Virus record (IMG/VR): IMGVR_UViG_3300045935_000034
Location: 1-59,478 of that record
Reading direction: 5' to 3' (one strand)
Length of the DNA: 59,478 nucleotides
Source: a virus
Below the pieces are notes generated by a model. The model worked only from the letters and a program-made list of their open reading frames with translations, was not told the DNA's origin and made no database searches. Of the stretch, positions 11,619 through 30,656 are shown in pieces (positions within the stretch are counted from its first letter, which is position 1; the number at the start of each line of letters is the position of its first letter). The translations under genes and the position numbers were made by a program.

Positions 11619-12281
11619 ATGGCAAGCGCCACATGGGATACGTTGTTCGACGGCCGTACTGACCTCATTCGGAAGATGCTTTTCGGTTCGGTCCTGATCA
11701 AGGATTACGACCCGGCTGTATCGCTCGCGACGTTCTCCCCGTTCGACTCCACCACCGGTGGCCTGTCGAGCACGCTCGTCTCAGGCCACGGCCTGGCTGA
11801 CATGGGCTACCTGGACGAGAACGGCGTGAAGTTCGCGCCGACTACTGCGACGGCCGACACGCTCGCGTGGCAGTCACGCCTTCCGCTGCGGACCGACTTC
11901 ACCTCGTCGACCGAGAAGGCCAGCGCGGTCTTCCTCCAGTCGAGCCCTGTCGTGGAAGCTGTGTTCCACAACAAGGTCATTCCGCTGACGGACACTCTCG
12001 GGCAAGAAGCCTATGAGATCACCGACGATCTGACCCCGGCCATCATCTACCGGTCGGTGTTGTTCCTCGGCGTCGACGGCTCCGGCGCGGATGTGCAGTA
12101 CGCCTGGAAGCTTTACCCGAAAGCTCTCATGACCAAGCCGTCCGAACAGGACTGGCAGGCGAAAAAGGAAGTTCAGTACGGAATGGAATTCACTCCGTAT
12201 CCGGACCCCGTCGCCGGGTTCGCAGTCACTCGTGGCCGTGAAGGCCCAGGATGGCGTTCGCTGGCCCCGGTCACCCCATAA
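11619..12281 (+). CDS. Major tail (tube) protein
   Basis: 220 aa. TWDTLFDGRTDLIRKMLFGSVLIKDY, then a beta-sandwich region with WQSRLPLRTDFTSSTEKASAVFLQ and YAWKLYPKALMTKPSEQDWQAKKEVQYGMEFTPYPDPVAG, typical of actinophage tail-tube subunits. It polymerises around the tape measure. Very good ribosome site; next to the pseudoknot at 12293-12360 and the chaperone genes. Confidence 0.85.
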   Translation: MASATWDTLFDGRTDLIRKMLFGSVLIKDYDPAVSLATFSPFDSTTGGLSSTLVSGHGLADMGYLDENGVKFAPTTATADTLAWQSRLPLRTDFTSSTEKASAVFLQSSPVVEAVFHNKVIPLTDTLGQEAYEITDDLTPAIIYRSVLFLGVDGSGADVQYAWKLYPKALMTKPSEQDWQAKKEVQYGMEFTPYPDPVAGFAVTRGREGPGWRSLAPVTP

Positions 12282-12292
12282 GGCCCGGGTGG

Positions 12293-12360
12293 GGGCGCGT
12301 ATCCCACGGCGGGTCTGTACGCGCCCCTGCTCGGCTACACATCTTTGCCAGACCCGCCGA
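12293..12360 (+). promoter_or_regulatory. H-type RNA pseudoknot in the leader of the tail-assembly chaperone gene
   Basis: Stem 1: GGGGCGCGTA (12293-12302) with TACGCGCCCC (12319-12328), 10 perfect pairs. Stem 2: GGCGGGTCTG (12309-12318) with CAGACCCGCC (12350-12359), 10 perfect pairs plus C12308-G12360. Stem 2's 5' strand is in the loop of stem 1 and directly abuts its 3' strand, so the stems could stack coaxially, with connecting loops of 5-6 and 21 nt. It ends 30 nt before the chaperone ATG and starts 11 nt after the tube stop. It could stall, process or protect mRNA, or tune the tube/chaperone ratio. Confidence 0.75.
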
Positions 12361-12390
12361 AGATCCGCCGACGATAAGGAAAGACTTCCC

Positions 12391-12741
12391 ATGTCAGACA
12401 TTGACCTTGACGCCATTCTCGCGCAGCGAGCCGAAGCGACCGGCGAGGTAGATACCGTGCCGTTCGCCTTCGCCGGGGAAACCTGGCGCATCAAGCATCC
12501 GTTGCTCGCTGACGACGAATGGAAGGACGAACTCGAAGACGTCGACAACGCCGACGGCATCGGCATCGCGCAGCACTATATGGGCGAGGAACAGTACGCC
12601 CGTTTCGTCGCAGCCGGAGGCAGGTCCGGTTTCGTCGTGCTGATCATCCGCGAAGTCGGCAAGGAGATGACCGACCTGACCGGGGATGACAAGCGCCCTA
12701 CACGATCCTCGACATCCTCGCGCAAGCGCCGGAAGCGGTAG
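12391..12741 (+). CDS. Tail assembly chaperone (G-like, in-frame product)
   Basis: 116 aa. Acidic protein with VDTVPFAFAGETWRIKHPLL and a central ADGIGIAQHYMGEEQYARFVAAGGRSGFVVLIIREV, typical of the first of the two tail-assembly chaperones of siphoviruses; it binds the tape measure while the tube polymerises. AAGGAAAG precedes the ATG. The basic tail after residue 100 (DDKRPTRSSTSSRKRRKR) is where ribosomes probably shift to make the longer product. Confidence 0.8.
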   Translation: MSDIDLDAILAQRAEATGEVDTVPFAFAGETWRIKHPLLADDEWKDELEDVDNADGIGIAQHYMGEEQYARFVAAGGRSGFVVLIIREVGKEMTDLTGDDKRPTRSSTSSRKRRKR

Positions 12742-13085
12742 AGGCTGACCTCGCGCGGTACTACCCGCGCGGGGCTGACCAGCTCGCCGCGTACTGGCGG
12801 GGCGAGATGTCCTTGCGCCGCTTGCGGGTTCTGGTGCAGCACCTACCGGCTGACTCGGCGAGCGCCTGCATGTTGCGCGGGAACTCGTGGACAGACAAGG
12901 AATACTTGCTAGCCCTGCTGGTCGATCATCTGGCCCTGTCTCGATACGAATTCGCGAAGGCCAACGGCGGGTCACCCGACGAGCCGCAGCCCGTACACCG
13001 CCCCGGCGACGAGGCACCCGAGGACAGGCGCGAACTGTTGCGCGCTGCCCACGATTCCGTGATGGCTCAAATCAAAGGGGCGTGA
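12690..13085 (+). CDS. Tail assembly chaperone extension (T-like), reached by -1 frameshift
   Basis: This frame continues the chaperone in the -1 register: YTILDILAQAPEAVEADLAR, then YYPRGADQLAAYWRGEMSLRRLRVLVQ, ending AAHDSVMAQIKGA. That is the usual content of the G-T extension, and it has no start codon until 12807. A TGA in this frame at 12687-12689 means the shift must occur at or after 12690. The likeliest spot is around CGCCCTAC (12694-12701), where the Pro-tRNA could slip from CCT to CCC; it is not a textbook heptamer. Product: residues 1 to about 103 of the G protein plus about 130 residues. Confidence 0.75.
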   Translation, partial: QAPYTILDILAQAPEAVEADLARYYPRGADQLAAYWRGEMSLRRLRVLVQHLPADSASACMLRGNSWTDKEYLLALLVDHLALSRYEFAKANGGSPDEPQPVHRPGDEAPEDRRELLRAAHDSVMAQIKGA

Positions 13086-13091
13086 TCCGCG

Positions 13092-16000
13092 GTGGCCTCA
13101 GTCGGCGTGCTGACACTCGACATCATGCCGAGTGTTAAGGATTTCAGCGGCGATATCCAGTCGCAGATCATCGGCCCCGCAACTCAGGCGGGAGTGCGCG
13201 CCGGAGAAGGCATCTCCTCCGGCATCCTCAGGGGTGCCACAGAAGGCTCAACCGGCGCGGGTCGCGCTATCACTTCGTCGATTACCGAGTCGGGCACACG
13301 GGCCGGTTCCGAAGCTGGGAAGGTTCTTCAGACTCAGCTCGGCGCGGCAGGTGCCCGTGCTGGTCGTGAAGCCGGTACGGGTATCACTGAAGGCGTGGTG
13401 TCGGCCACGTCCCGCGCGGGCAGCGACGCTGGGCGCACACTGTCATCCAGCGTCGCGAGCGGAGGCAGGACCGGCGGGAAAGAAGCTGGGGACGCTATCG
13501 GCAGCGCGGTCGGCGACGGCGCGAAAGAGGGTGGCTCCCGAGCGAAAACCCATCTGGCTGACGGAATCCACGAAGGAGCCAAGCAGGGGACCGCGCGGTC
13601 CAAAGAGTCGATGATGTCCGGGTTCGAGGGAATCGCCAAGGGCATGGCTGCGATGTGGGCAGGCAGCAAGGCGTTCGATTTCTTCAGTGAGTCCGTGCAG
13701 GCTGCGAAGGACTACAACTCGACGAACCGGACCGTTCAAGCGACATTGCAGAATGTCGGCGCTGGCGCAGGGGTCACGACCGAGTCCTTCAAGAAACTTT
13801 CCGAAGCCAACGCCGATCTCTCGGGCGCGGGCGACACCGCACAGCTCAGTATGCAGCAAACGTTGCTGGGCTTCACAAACATCAAGAACTCCGCCTCCGA
13901 CAAAATCTTCGACAAGACCGCGCTCGCGGTCAACGACCTGTCAGCCGGCATGGGAATCGAGCTGCCCCAAGCGGCGACGACCCTCGGCAAGGCGATGGAC
14001 AACCCAGCGCAGGCGGCAACTTCGCTGCGTAAAGCGCACATCGACTTGTCGGCCGCGCAGCAGCAGTCCATTAAGGACATGGTCAAGAACGGTGACACCG
14101 CTGGGGCTCAGAAGGTAATCCTTCAGGCTGTGGAGGACCGGTACAACGGGGTGGCCGCTGCGTCAGCCACGACCGGCGCGCGCAACTCCGTTGCCATGGA
14201 GCGGATGAAGACCGACGTCGGCGAGAAGCTCTTGCCTGCCATGGGCAAGTGGACCAAGTTCATGCAGAGCGAGGTTATCCCGAAACTTACTGCGGTGATT
14301 GGGTTCCTCGGTGATCACGCGACTGAGGTCGGCACGTTGATCGGGGTCCTCGGCGGGCTCTATGTGGCGTACAAAGTGTATACCGCCGGTGTCGCGATCA
14401 TGACCGGTATTCAGACAATCTGCACCACCGTCACGGAACTGCAGGAAAAAGGCTTCGGCAAGCTGAATAGCACAATGAGAGCTAACGTCATCGTGACTAT
14501 TGTGCTGCTGATCGCTGCGCTGATTCTCGCGCTGATCTACGCGTACAATCATTGCGAGACATTCCGGAATATTGTGGACAAAGTCTGGGATGTCATCAAA
14601 AAGGTCGGCGCATTTATTGGCGACATTTTCGTGGCTATCTGGAACGCTCTCGTTGACGCGTTTCATAAAGTTGTTGAGGCGGGAAAGACTGTCGGCGAGA
14701 AGCTGTCCGGCGTCATGCACGTCATCGCGGACGCGGCCTCGTGGATGTGGGACAACGTTCTCAAGCCCGTGTGGGACAAGCTCGTTGCCGCGTTCGATTG
14801 GGTTGTCGGCGCAGCAACCGATTTCGGCAAGGGCGTGGCGAAGGGTTTCAATGTCATCAAAGACGCGGCCGTGTGGTGGTGGGACCACGTACTGCATCCG
14901 ATCTTCGATGCCTACGCTATCGCCGTCGCGGTCCTGATTGCCATCGTGTGGGTCGTGTTCGTCAAGCCGATGATCTGGCTCTTCAAGGATGTACTCGCGC
15001 CGGTATTCGTGTGGCTGTGGGAGCACGTGATCAAGCCCGTTTTCGACAAGATCGGCGACATTTTTAACTGGATCTGGAACGCGATTATTTTCATTGTCGT
15101 CGGCCTGATCAAAAAAGAAATCGAGATCCTGTTCGGCGTATTCAACTTCCTGTGGGAGAACGTCGTAAAGCCGGTGTTCAATAAGATCGGCGACATTTTT
15201 AACTGGATCTGGAACGCGATTATCTTTGTCGTCGTGGGTCTGATTAAGAAAGAAATTCAGATTCTATGCGACATCTTTAACTGGCTCTGGGATAATGTCG
15301 TCAGGCCGGTATTCAGCAAGATCGGCGATATCTTCACCTGGATTCATGACACGATTATCAGGCCAATCGTTGACAAGATAAAAGAATCTATCGACGGCTG
15401 GGGCAAGATTTTCCACTGGTTGTACGACAATGTAATCAAGCCTGTTTTTGACAAGATCGGCGAAGCGGCTAACTGGTTCTGGGACCACGTCATTCACCCG
15501 GTGTTCGACTTCATCAGCGGAAAGGTGCACGACGTCGGTCAAGCCTTCAGCGACATGGGCGACACGATCGGCGGCATCTGGGACGGGCTCAAGAAAATGG
15601 TGCACGACGGCATCCAGGCCGTCGTGAACTTGGTGTGGAACAACGGTTTGCGGCCCGTGGTCAATGCCGTACTGAAGTGGATCCCGGGCATGGACGAGCT
15701 GCCCCGCTTCGATGTCCCGCAGTTCGCGGGCGGCGGCGTGCTGTCCGGATATGCCCCCGGGCGCGACACCGTGCACGCACTGCTCTCGCCCGGCGAGGCA
15801 GTGCTCGTGCCCGAGCTGGTCCGCATGATCGGGCCCGCCGCAATTCTCGCAGCCAACGCCGACGCAGCACGTCACCGTTACCACGGTGGCGGGCTCGTCG
15901 GTCACTTCGCTGACGGCGGGATCGTCAGTGGCGCAACAGGTCCCGCCGCGAACGCATCGGGTGCACCGATGGCCGGCACAGCCGCCGGATCGGCGGCCGA

Positions 16001-17945
16001 TCTCGACGCGACGACCAAGGCAGCAACGAGCGCCGACGCTGCCATTCAGAAGCTCGCGGCCAGCATCACAGGGACACTCACGCCCGCCGAAGCTGCGCTC
16101 AGCGCGCTGATCCTGGCGCAGGTGGTGCCCACCCTCATGCTCGCTGAGCTGCACGTGGGAACTGTTCTACCCCAGCAGAATGCAGCGCTGGTCACATCGA
16201 CCGTCGCGAGCTGGATGACAATCACCGCGACGATCACCGCCAACGACAACGCAGTCACCGCGCGACAGAACGCACTCGCGCAGTTCCTCGCCGCCTCGTG
16301 GGCGGGCATCACTGCCGTGGTGAGCGCATCGACGACCGCGCAGCTCACCGCGTTCGGCGGGCTCGGCAACGGCCTGTCGGGACTGCGTGACGCTGTCGGC
16401 CTCACCGCGACATGGGTACACGACCGGTTCGCCGACATGCAGGCAACGGCGTCCGCGCCGATTCGCTGGATTCTGCAGAACCCGTTCAACGCCGGATTGA
16501 TCGCAGCCTGGAACAGTCTGGACTCAAGTTTCGCGCTGGGTAAGCATCTCGCGCCCGTAGCGATCCCGTTCGCGACTGGTGGCGAAGTCCCCGGAATCGG
16601 CAACACAGACACAGTCCGCGCGCTGCTGACCCCGGGCGAATACGTGCTGCCGAAACCTGTCGTGGACAAGTGGGGGCTCGACAACGTCCGCGCTGCGCAC
16701 GAGGCCGCGCTCGTCCCCGGAGACTGGAGCGGCGTCGAGGGAATGATTCTCGGGTTCGCAGACGGTGGCGTAGTTCCCGCGACAGGCAGCGCGCAGAGTG
16801 CTGCCCTGGCACGAGGTATCGCCTACGCGCAGTCCATGACCGGCAAGCCCTACGTCTGGGGTGGCAGCTCCACAGCGGGCACAGACTGCTCGGGTTACAT
16901 GGGGTCTATCGCCCGCGTGCTGCTGGGCTTGCCTCCGTTCCCGCGCGAGTGGGCGACTGGCGCGGTATCGGCCAGCACGCCACCGCCGCATTTCGTTCCG
17001 GGCATTGACGGGACGTTCGCGATCGGCGTCAATCCTGGGTCGCATACGGCAGGCACGCTCGCCGGAGTCAACGTGGAGTCCGGCGGTGTGCACAACAACG
17101 TGCAGTACGGCGGCAACTCTGCTGGAGCTGACGCGAGCCAGTTCCCGCTGAAATTCCATCTCCCCGAACTGGGCGGGTCCTTTGTGTCCGGTGGCGGGGG
17201 CAGCGGCTTCGACCCGTCCGCGGTCGCTACTACCGCGTTCGCCGACACCTACAAAATGATCGGTCAGATCACCGGCCTGTTCGGCGCGTCGATGATGGCC
17301 AGTCAGGGCCAGGGCGTCGCCACTGCTGGGGCCGACGCCGCGAAGTCTGCGGCCATATCGAAGATCACGGCACTGGTCGCGGACACCAGCGCGGGCAGTG
17401 CCAGCTCGGCAGGCTCGGCTGACCTTGTCGCTACTGTGCGCGGCATCGCGGCGGGCTACGGCTGGAACAACGGCGCAGAATGGGACGCGATCGACTACAT
17501 CGTGTCGCACGAGTCGAGCTGGGACCCGACCAATCAGAACAAAGTCTCCACCGCGTACGGACTGTTCCAGTTCCTTGACGGGACATGGGGCGGTACCGGC
17601 GTCGCCAAGACCAGCAATCCCACGCAACAGGCTATCGCCGGTATGCGTTACATCCACGACCGCTATACCGACCCGCTGGGCGCGAAAGCGTTCTGGGATG
17701 CCCACCACTCCTACGACAGCGGCGGCATCGTGCCCGAAGGGAACACGCTGGTAACAAACAGCTCCCGTCGCCCTGAGGCTCTGCTCAACGGTCAGCAGTG
17801 GGACGACATTCACGCGCTCGCCCTGGCGCGCGGGCGCAGCGGCGACGCGCCCAACGTGACCGTGAACGCTCGCACTGACGCCAGTCCAGAGCACATCGCT
17901 GCCGTGGTCGCTCGTCGGCTACAGCTCGCACTGAGAGTGGGATAG
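13092..17945 (+). CDS. Tape measure protein with NlpC/P60 and lytic-transglycosylase domains
   Basis: 1617 aa from a GTG. The N-terminal 190 residues are Gly/Ala-rich; coiled coils and TP901-type tape-measure sequence follow (VQAAKDYNSTNRTVQATLQN). Hydrophobic segments lie near 464-485 and 604-630. Three tandem 45-residue Trp-rich units (KIGDIFNWIWNAIIF type) occupy about 645-785. An NlpC/P60-type domain lies near 1243-1330 (GKPYVWGG, catalytic DCSG near 1266, SHTAG), and a soluble-lytic-transglycosylase-like domain near 1455-1545 (HESSWDP catalytic Glu, AYGLFQFLDGTWGG). It sets tail length and probably cuts the cell wall during DNA entry. Confidence 0.9.
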   Translation: MASVGVLTLDIMPSVKDFSGDIQSQIIGPATQAGVRAGEGISSGILRGATEGSTGAGRAITSSITESGTRAGSEAGKVLQTQLGAAGARAGREAGTGITEGVVSATSRAGSDAGRTLSSSVASGGRTGGKEAGDAIGSAVGDGAKEGGSRAKTHLADGIHEGAKQGTARSKESMMSGFEGIAKGMAAMWAGSKAFDFFSESVQAAKDYNSTNRTVQATLQNVGAGAGVTTESFKKLSEANADLSGAGDTAQLSMQQTLLGFTNIKNSASDKIFDKTALAVNDLSAGMGIELPQAATTLGKAMDNPAQAATSLRKAHIDLSAAQQQSIKDMVKNGDTAGAQKVILQAVEDRYNGVAAASATTGARNSVAMERMKTDVGEKLLPAMGKWTKFMQSEVIPKLTAVIGFLGDHATEVGTLIGVLGGLYVAYKVYTAGVAIMTGIQTICTTVTELQEKGFGKLNSTMRANVIVTIVLLIAALILALIYAYNHCETFRNIVDKVWDVIKKVGAFIGDIFVAIWNALVDAFHKVVEAGKTVGEKLSGVMHVIADAASWMWDNVLKPVWDKLVAAFDWVVGAATDFGKGVAKGFNVIKDAAVWWWDHVLHPIFDAYAIAVAVLIAIVWVVFVKPMIWLFKDVLAPVFVWLWEHVIKPVFDKIGDIFNWIWNAIIFIVVGLIKKEIEILFGVFNFLWENVVKPVFNKIGDIFNWIWNAIIFVVVGLIKKEIQILCDIFNWLWDNVVRPVFSKIGDIFTWIHDTIIRPIVDKIKESIDGWGKIFHWLYDNVIKPVFDKIGEAANWFWDHVIHPVFDFISGKVHDVGQAFSDMGDTIGGIWDGLKKMVHDGIQAVVNLVWNNGLRPVVNAVLKWIPGMDELPRFDVPQFAGGGVLSGYAPGRDTVHALLSPGEAVLVPELVRMIGPAAILAANADAARHRYHGGGLVGHFADGGIVSGATGPAANASGAPMAGTAAGSAADLDATTKAATSADAAIQKLAASITGTLTPAEAALSALILAQVVPTLMLAELHVGTVLPQQNAALVTSTVASWMTITATITANDNAVTARQNALAQFLAASWAGITAVVSASTTAQLTAFGGLGNGLSGLRDAVGLTATWVHDRFADMQATASAPIRWILQNPFNAGLIAAWNSLDSSFALGKHLAPVAIPFATGGEVPGIGNTDTVRALLTPGEYVLPKPVVDKWGLDNVRAAHEAALVPGDWSGVEGMILGFADGGVVPATGSAQSAALARGIAYAQSMTGKPYVWGGSSTAGTDCSGYMGSIARVLLGLPPFPREWATGAVSASTPPPHFVPGIDGTFAIGVNPGSHTAGTLAGVNVESGGVHNNVQYGGNSAGADASQFPLKFHLPELGGSFVSGGGGSGFDPSAVATTAFADTYKMIGQITGLFGASMMASQGQGVATAGADAAKSAAISKITALVADTSAGSASSAGSADLVATVRGIAAGYGWNNGAEWDAIDYIVSHESSWDPTNQNKVSTAYGLFQFLDGTWGGTGVAKTSNPTQQAIAGMRYIHDRYTDPLGAKAFWDAHHSYDSGGIVPEGNTLVTNSSRRPEALLNGQQWDDIHALALARGRSGDAPNVTVNARTDASPEHIAAVVARRLQLALRVG

Positions 17946-24268: not shown

Positions 24269-24613
24269 GTGGCCGCCGTCGACCACGACCTGTATATCGA
24301 GCAGGGCGCGACATTTACCGTCACATTCGAGTGGCGTGAAGACAGTGCGACGGGGCCGCTGATCGATACGGCGGGCTACTCGCCACGCATGCAAATCCGC
24401 CAGCGCCCAGGCTCGTCCGTGCTGCTCACCGTGGACTCCAGCATCACCGCGGTGGGCGGCATCATCGCTCTGCGCATCGGCGCTGACATCACCGCGACGC
24501 TGACCCACAGCGGCGTGTATGACATCGAACTGCACAGCGTCAGCGACTCGACCGAAGTCGTGCGTCTCGCACAGGGCGCTGTGACCCTCTCGCGTGAGGT
24601 GACAACGTCATGA
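24269..24613 (+). CDS. Beta-sandwich baseplate/fibre adaptor (BppU/LtfC-like)
   Basis: 114 aa from a [71 protein letters not shown], ending TLSREVTT: the pattern of small beta-sandwich proteins that attach fibres to tails. It overlaps the collagen-like fibre gene by 4 bp, so it may be its anchor. Confidence 0.6.
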
Positions 24614-25668
24614 CAGACACAGTCGTCGTCGTGCGCGAGCCGATCTCTGTCGTCGCCGTCGCGAGCCCCGGGCGGGGCCCTGCGGGCGTTGGTGGCCCAG
24701 CCGGACCCACCGGGCCCACCGGGGCGGCGTCGACCGTTCCCGGCCCGCCGGGAGCGGAGGGCGCTACTGGTCCCGCCGGTCCCGCAGGAGCCGCCGGAGC
24801 TGCGTCGAGCGTGCCCGGCCCAGTGGGGCCCGTCGGCCCCCCTGGAGCCGACTCGTTGATACCAGGCCCCATCGGTCCCATAGGGCCCGCTGGGGCCGAT
24901 TCAGTCGTGCCCGGTCCCGCTGGGCTTCCCGGCGCTGACTCAACTGTCCCTGGCCCCATAGGGCCTGCGGGCCCAGCAGGAGCCGACTCGACTGTCCCCG
25001 GTCCCGTGGGGCCAACCGGCGCGACCGGCGCAGCGTCCACAGTGCCCGGCCCTATAGGGCCGACCGGCGCGACCGGCGCGACCGGCGCAGCGTCGACCGT
25101 GCCGGGTCCCGTGGGTCCTGCCGGACCGACAGGACCCGCAGGGCCGACAGGTATGACAGGTGCTACCGGGGCAGCGTCCACCGTCGCGGGCCCCACCGGC
25201 CCGACCGGCGCGCCATCGACCGTTCCGGGCCCGATAGGGCCAGTAGGTCCCGCTGGGCCTACAGGGCCGACCGGCGCGACAGGTGCAACAGGTGCCACCG
25301 GTGCCACCGGTGCGGCGTCGACTGTGGCAGGCCCCACCGGCCCGACCGGCGCGGCGTCCACTGTCCCCGGACCAGTGGGGCCCGCAGGCCCAGCCGGACC
25401 GACAGGCCCCGCTGGGGCCGACTCCACCGTACCGGGCCCCACCGGCCCGACCGGGGCGGCTTCGACCGTGCCCGGACCGGCAGGCCCCACAGGCCCGACC
25501 GGGGCGGCATCGACTGTGCCCGGACCGGCAGGGCCCACGGGGCCGACTGGCGCGACCGGCGCGACTGGCGCGGCATCGACGGTTCCCGGGCCTACGGGGC
25601 TTACGGGCGCAACAGGTCCAGCCGGACCGAGCACGTACTTGCTGAGCGCGAAATGGGGGATTGACTGA
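24610..25668 (+). CDS. Collagen-like tail fibre protein
   Basis: 352 aa. After a 20-residue N-terminus ([17 protein letters not shown]) almost the whole protein is Gly-X-Y repeats ([18 protein letters not shown] units with interruptions ADSTVPGP), ending in a short non-collagen cap ([12 protein letters not shown]). It should form a trimeric triple helix projecting from the tail. The repetitive DNA makes an equally long open frame on the other strand, which is an artefact. Repeat number probably varies by slippage and recombination. Confidence 0.85.
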
Positions 25669-30336: not shown

Positions 30337-30619
30337 TGGAGTGCACATTCGGTTCTGCTGGCCCAACCTCGACACCGAGGCTTGTGCACGCGCCCCGGGG
30401 GCTCGCACGCTGTATGTGGTGACGAGTTCCCCGCGGCTTTCGGTCGCTCCCCTCCCAACACCCCTCAGGTCGGGGGCGACCGGATTCCATCAGGGGCTCG
30501 TCACAGGGCACTGGGATGCTGCCCAGTGTCGTCGTGTCAACCCAGCTCGCCCACGCGCCCAGGGGCGTACCCAGCCGGGCGCACGGCATGACGGGTCGTG
30601 AACCCCGACCATGACCCGA
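30337..30619. other. Non-coding gap after the tail spike
   Basis: No supported gene. Open frames on both strands here lack ribosome sites and family resemblance. Apart from the repeat at its left and the terminator at its right I see only a short inverted element (CTCCGCAGTGGAG, 30329-30341). The stretch could hold the untranslated tail of the late transcript. Confidence 0.4.
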
Positions 30620-30656
30620 AAAGAGCCCCCGCACCGTCATGGTGCGGGGGCTCTTT
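30620..30656. terminator. Bidirectional intrinsic terminator
   Basis: Perfect 16-bp stem AAAGAGCCCCCGCACC (30620-30635) and GGTGCGGGGGCTCTTT (30641-30656), loop GTCAT. It separates the rightward virion operon from the leftward block ending at 30668. Confidence 0.95.

Follow-up and report, generated by a model that had tools for sequence, protein, structure and literature searches.

In this study we analysed a viral contig of 59,478 nucleotides, here called the window, with proteins similar to those of Gordonia, Corynebacterium, Mycobacterium and Streptomyces phages. Between its genes for the major tail (tube) protein and the tail assembly chaperone lies a gap in which a sequence-only reading had placed a pseudoknot. 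The genes and signals around this gap are the following:

11619..12281, plus strand: gene of the 220-aa major tail (tube) protein (matches PHROG 476, major tail protein, at E 4e-44, and by tblastn the annotated major tail proteins)
12376..12380, plus strand: AAGGA, the likely Shine-Dalgarno (SD) sequence of the chaperone gene, read in the sequence
12391..12741, plus strand: tail assembly chaperone gene, first frame, 116 aa (PHROG 5010, E 1e-34; alignment A1)
12742..13085, plus strand: continuation of the chaperone in the -1 frame, with the ORF end at 13085 (reading frames; two-frame annotation in Catfish, Dardanus and others)
13092-17945: tape measure gene, 1617 aa

The -1 frame part of the chaperone is presumably reached by programmed frameshifting. 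In the C-terminal region of the tape measure protein, NlpC/P60-like and lytic transglycosylase-like motifs are apparent by eye. The gap itself covers 12282-12390 and measures 109 nt, exactly as had been read. It holds five strands of interest:

12285..12301, plus strand: 5' arm of stem 1 (S1), 17 bp with three G-U, starting 3 nt past the major tail stop codon
12307..12317, plus strand: strand A, the loop strand and 5' strand of stem 2, CGGCGGGTCTG, abutting the 3' arm of S1
12318..12334, plus strand: 3' arm of S1
12349..12359, plus strand: A'1, the 3' strand of stem 2 and first partner of A, CAGACCCGCCG (11 bp, -26.7 kcal/mol stacking)
12361..12370, plus strand: A'2, second partner of A, AGATCCGCCG (10 bp, one of them G-U; -21.5 kcal/mol), with its end 5 nt before the Shine-Dalgarno sequence

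Two interlocked stems of 10 bp each had been proposed. Their topology holds, with the coordinates one base further upstream and with both stems longer than described: S1 consists of 17 uninterrupted pairs (12285-12301 with 12318-12334, counting three G-U) around a core in which GGGGCGCGTA (12292-12301) pairs with TACGCGCCCC (12318-12327), and stem 2 has 11 bp. The linkers are 5 nt (12302-12306), 0 nt (12307-12317 directly against 12318) and, with the long S1, 14 nt (12335-12348). Of the linker lengths given before, 5-6 and 21 nt, the 5 nt is right and the 21 nt applies to the short form of S1, giving way to 14 nt once all 17 pairs are counted.

Such a knot had been judged very unlikely to arise by chance, and the controls agree. 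The best H-type pair in the gap has a summed stacking of -64.3 kcal/mol (stem energies in this study are stacking sums and not pseudoknot free energies); when the gap was shuffled 20,000 times with its dinucleotides preserved, the best shuffle reached -44.6 kcal/mol, none came near the window knot, and any qualifying H-type pair at all was present in just 10.7% of the shuffles. A fold of the gap restricted to nested pairs also gives a strong hairpin (z -2.7). When the whole 59-kb window was scanned on both strands at the same cut-off, three further matches appeared: two, overlapping each other at 25305-25410, lie on the minus strand opposite collagen-like repeats and are caused by these repeats, and the third is one stem of a canonical U-tract terminator (30608-30656). 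The collagen-like Gly-Pro-Thr repeat protein encoded at 24610-25668 has 352 aa and is probably part of a tail fibre; the site at 30608-30656 is a strong intrinsic terminator on the minus strand, a 13-bp G+C stem followed by TTTT, for leftward transcription.

Almost no close relatives of the window were found by DNA or by tube protein, and homologous gaps were therefore collected through the alignment of the chaperone. Gaps were taken between the two genes or upstream of chaperone homologues from annotated phages, viral contigs and bacterial genomes, and prophages were added later as a hold-out. The S1 plus A:A'1 topology is present, in unrelated sequences and with 42 distinct A strands, in 44 of 74 distinct sequence clusters from Gordonia, Corynebacterium, Streptomyces, Rhodococcus and Mycobacterium phages and prophages, clusters that were split by shared 8-mers and not by phylogeny and hence are not fully independent. 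Across clusters, all four Watson-Crick pair types occur at nearly every one of the last six positions, at the 3' end, of the A core. A MAFFT alignment of the Corynebacterium-type group, which carries a one-base slip in the loop, was left out of the pair counts. The finder was fixed on phages and viral contigs before the hold-out was scored; among the 31 new prophage clusters the knot occurs in 15, with 0 of 40 shuffles as strong, and 14 of those 15 carry the second copy as well. Covariation in homologous gaps had been suggested as a check, and it is found: both stems are kept despite almost wholly different sequences, and the homologues without compensatory changes that would speak against the fold did not turn up among these gaps. 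By its pairing pattern the element is an H-type pseudoknot, in which the loop strand of hairpin 1 pairs with a downstream single strand so that the stems interlock, with covariation across 44 clusters. In the Catfish element, for example, the order is AAAGCGCGCCGCGTG-CCT-TGGTGGGTA-CACGCGGCGCGCTTT-cgtgtc-TACCCACCA, and in Samy the loop TGCGCGGGTC pairs with GACCCGCGCA. The length of S1 varies from 8 to 17 bp. The direct contact of strand A with the 3' arm of S1, noted before for the window, is conserved too, with a spacer of 0 nt in 18 of the 44 elements and of at most 1 nt in 34. In about 30 of the 74 clusters the element is absent or not recognised by the finder criteria, and some of these are bulged versions that were missed: among others, Gsput1 (L010) and the Blueberry/CaptainKirk2 group (L012, L047) have the pattern too, with a bulge in S1 that makes the finder score too weak, and L039 passes after correction of its start codon. 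Lambda and phiC31 have no gap at this place to house the element. Given these phages and the roughly 30 clusters without it, the element is therefore not essential to siphophage tail assembly.

The earlier reading, supported as to the pseudoknot, was incomplete in one respect: it missed that the 3' strand of stem 2 is duplicated. In most element-bearing gaps this strand occurs as a direct repeat, so that a second copy, A'2, is able to pair with the same strand A in 35 of the 44 elements (none was detected in the other 9). At the single locus of the window the significance of A'2 is p = 0.009. With S1, A and the stronger copy fixed and the remainder shuffled, the second copy reaches p < 0.05 in 20 of 31 clusters (Fisher 7e-22). 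Copies pair by the very definition used by the finder, and it is therefore the permutation and swap tests, and not the pair counts, that bear statistical weight. Second copies of -16 kcal/mol or stronger occur in 25 of 44 elements with their own A, against 3.9% when A is swapped between loci; when the A strands were permuted among loci 20,000 times, a mean of 1.65 loci and a maximum of 8 reached this value. Chance and base composition are ruled out by the shuffles, swaps and permutation together with the window-wide and locus-wide scans; minus-strand matches in the latter look mostly like mirror images of the plus-strand elements. Individual loci show triple covariation, in which a change in A is matched in both copies: L101 has A TGGCAGGTCC with GGACCTGCCA and GGATCTGCCA, L103 and L112 have A TGTCAGGTCC with GGACCTGACA twice, and L071 has A TGGCAGATCC with GGATCTGCCA twice. 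Two mutually exclusive helices that share one strand are thus kept by covariation, as in a bistable switch that sequesters a ribosome-binding site.

The position of the second copy differs between elements. Taking predicted start codons, A'2 lies over the stretch from SD to AUG in 20 of the 35 two-copy elements, and its median 3' end is the A of the AUG. In L119 the loop CATGCGCGGTC pairs with GACCGCGCATG, the AUG included, and in L073, L078, L079 and L081 (large Gordonia, Rhodococcus and Mycobacterium phages) the loop bears CUCC, an anti-Shine-Dalgarno motif. In the remaining 15 two-copy elements A'2 is found mostly just upstream of the SD, and in the window and these 14 others blocking of the start is therefore less certain. 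A:A'1 and A:A'2 are about equally strong, with a median difference of 0.0 in both position classes. Wobbles in the extended helices (discovery used Watson-Crick pairs only, and extension was symmetric) are G-U in 38 cases and A-C in 10 when read on the plus strand (p = 6e-5). This excess supports action of the element as plus-strand RNA; neither a DNA structure nor minus-strand RNA would be expected to give it.

Since the second partner coincides with the next gene's ribosome-binding site or adjoins it, the likely function is control of translation initiation and not that of a passive spacer or expression step. We consider it probable that the late mRNA of actinobacterial siphophages carries here an RNA element that acts in cis, has two states and controls how the tail assembly chaperone is translated. 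Strand A would be displayed in the loop of S1, a long hairpin rich in G+C right behind the major tail gene. Pairing of A with the upstream copy A'1 would form the H-type pseudoknot, and pairing with the downstream copy A'2, within or abutting the ribosome-binding region of the next gene (usually the chaperone), would block or crowd the start. A'1 would then be a decoy that mimics the start region and, by holding A, leaves the chaperone start free. As A'1 is transcribed before A'2, young transcripts might tend to the open state. We infer repression by A:A'2 and interconversion of the two states; what drives the switch might be transcript age, ribosome loading or a bound protein, on any of which chaperone synthesis could depend. 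Much tube protein and little of the adjacent chaperone are made from one transcript, which is classically ascribed to start-site strength. Competition between two near-equal pairings could keep chaperone synthesis far below that of the tube protein, and a role of the element in setting the differing amounts of the two products, as the sequence-only reading had hinted, is plausible. More boldly, these elements may form a new class of phage RNA toggle. The loop strand of such a toggle would take as its partner either the ribosome-binding region of the following gene or a mimic of that region further upstream; evolution would have held the two pairings equal in energy and left their sequence free, and in actinobacterial siphophages at large the toggle would, with no outside help, time the synthesis of the chaperone or set its ratio. 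On this wider proposal we are nearly evenly divided, leaning slightly to the sceptical side.

Other functions have to be weighed against a translational switch. The element might be a static barrier, with S1 and the knot shielding the 3' end of the abundant major tail mRNA from exonucleases or slowing the polymerase, and with A'2 as a spare partner that keeps the knot folded. In favour of a barrier, a hairpin of high stability opens every element a short way past the stop codon of the major tail gene (at 3-73 nt in annotated phages), many knot-free clusters have a strong simple hairpin at the same place (L013, L072, L075, L082, L088, L092, L132 and L138), and the element keeps its place behind the major tail gene in L073, L078 and L079, in which a small protein and not the chaperone is encoded next. 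An older function of the stable hairpin by itself may be to protect the tube message or to end it. However, a barrier leaves unexplained why A'2 lies on the SD-AUG stretch in 20 clusters and why the copies are isoenergetic, and we regard it as an unlikely account of the whole element. The spread in the distance from stop codon to S1 rules out coupling to termination on the major tail gene as a general rule. Less probable again is an operator, at which one of the two pseudoknots would be bound by the tail chaperone, by the tube protein or by a host factor, with feedback on translation of the kind exerted by T4 gp32 and ribosomal protein S15. Bistable pairings are typical of protein-binding operators, and the two structural products would be natural sensors of the state of assembly, but with 42 different A strands there is, apart from a purine-rich bias of A, no conserved sequence for a shared protein to read. 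It is very improbable that the site serves processing by RNase III or another endonuclease, with the major tail mRNA cut off from the message that follows it: if stacked coaxially, the stems of 17 and 11 bp would resemble a long duplex, yet stem 1 shrinks to 8 bp in some elements and a duplicated partner at the start codon would be superfluous. We give almost no credence to the idea that the element is simply an intrinsic terminator or attenuator of the usual kind. Terminator-like hairpins are known at this place: in cluster O mycobacteriophages the major tail subunit gene is followed by a stem-loop and TTTCT (PMC4351075), and Phaux (L013) has a hairpin with TTTT. But the window site shows neither a terminator motif nor a U-tract behind the stem, only 2 of the 44 elements have 5 T or more within the 8 nt that follow S1, a U-tract is needed by the mycobacterial polymerase according to the title of Czyz et al. 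2014 (PMC3993855), and A, A'1 and A'2 are not required for termination. Action in trans on other genes of the window phage was also rejected: matches to the A' motif elsewhere number 18, with 18.7 expected.

Several known systems resemble the switch that we favour. The repZ-type pseudoknot of IncI/IncB plasmids activates translation and is tied to a leader peptide; there, too, the loop of an upstream hairpin pairs beside the Shine-Dalgarno region and controls translation in cis, but the phage element has no such leader ORF and its partner strand is duplicated. The single autoregulatory pseudoknots of rpsO/S15 and T4 gene 32, which are read by a protein, share with it an H-type pseudoknot near the ribosome-binding site of a phage or bacterial gene; the phage element differs in its second partner copy, its many phage families and its free sequence. 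Bistable expression platforms of the riboswitch type use SD, anti-SD and anti-anti-SD helices, and exclusive helices that share one strand are common to both; the masking of the ribosome-binding site by one helix would have its counterpart in the 20 elements with A'2 over the SD-AUG stretch. In contrast to such platforms, no aptamer or conserved ligand-binding core is seen in the phage element, the partners are direct repeats, and the shared strand lies in a hairpin loop. The stem-loop of the cluster O mycobacteriophages occupies the corresponding place in the late operon and is likewise a strong hairpin; unlike our element it has a U-tract and no described loop partner, and it was read as a transcription terminator (PMC4351075). 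Frameshift-stimulating pseudoknots (reviewed in PMC5009743) are likewise tied to a gene expressed by frameshifting, as the chaperone presumably is. They act 5-9 nt past a slippery heptamer inside the recoded gene, however, whereas the phage element ends at least 20 nt upstream of the chaperone start and therefore cannot stimulate the frameshift of that gene in the usual way.

No Rfam 15 family was matched at the gathering threshold in the window or in 11 related loci, and permissive thresholds gave chance-level matches alone. A search of the open-access literature, with most subscription journals outside its reach, returned no paper that describes the element. A probable RNA switch with a duplicated partner appears to be widespread in actinobacterial phages and, apparently, undescribed so far. 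Many phages of one host phylum seem to share an RNA architecture in which the sequence has fully drifted and three strands are still complementary, and this complete drift may explain its absence from sequence-based family searches. For studies of pseudoknot switches in actinobacteria, natural variants are at hand and the predictions are directly testable, and there is reason to seek duplicated-partner pseudoknots elsewhere. Some loci depart from the common layout. The Gordonia phages TinaLin and Vendetta (L008, L009) have an extra strong hairpin ahead of S1 and past the stop codon of the major tail gene, and in mycobacteriophage Redno2 (L074) the finder places a strong pseudoknot near 1971 at the chaperone start and not upstream of it. 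Upstream of 2099 in mycobacteriophage Jung (L077) there are at least three partner copies: GACCACACC, GATCACACC within tandem CCCACCAGATCACACCG repeats, and GACCGCACCA adjoining the AUG.
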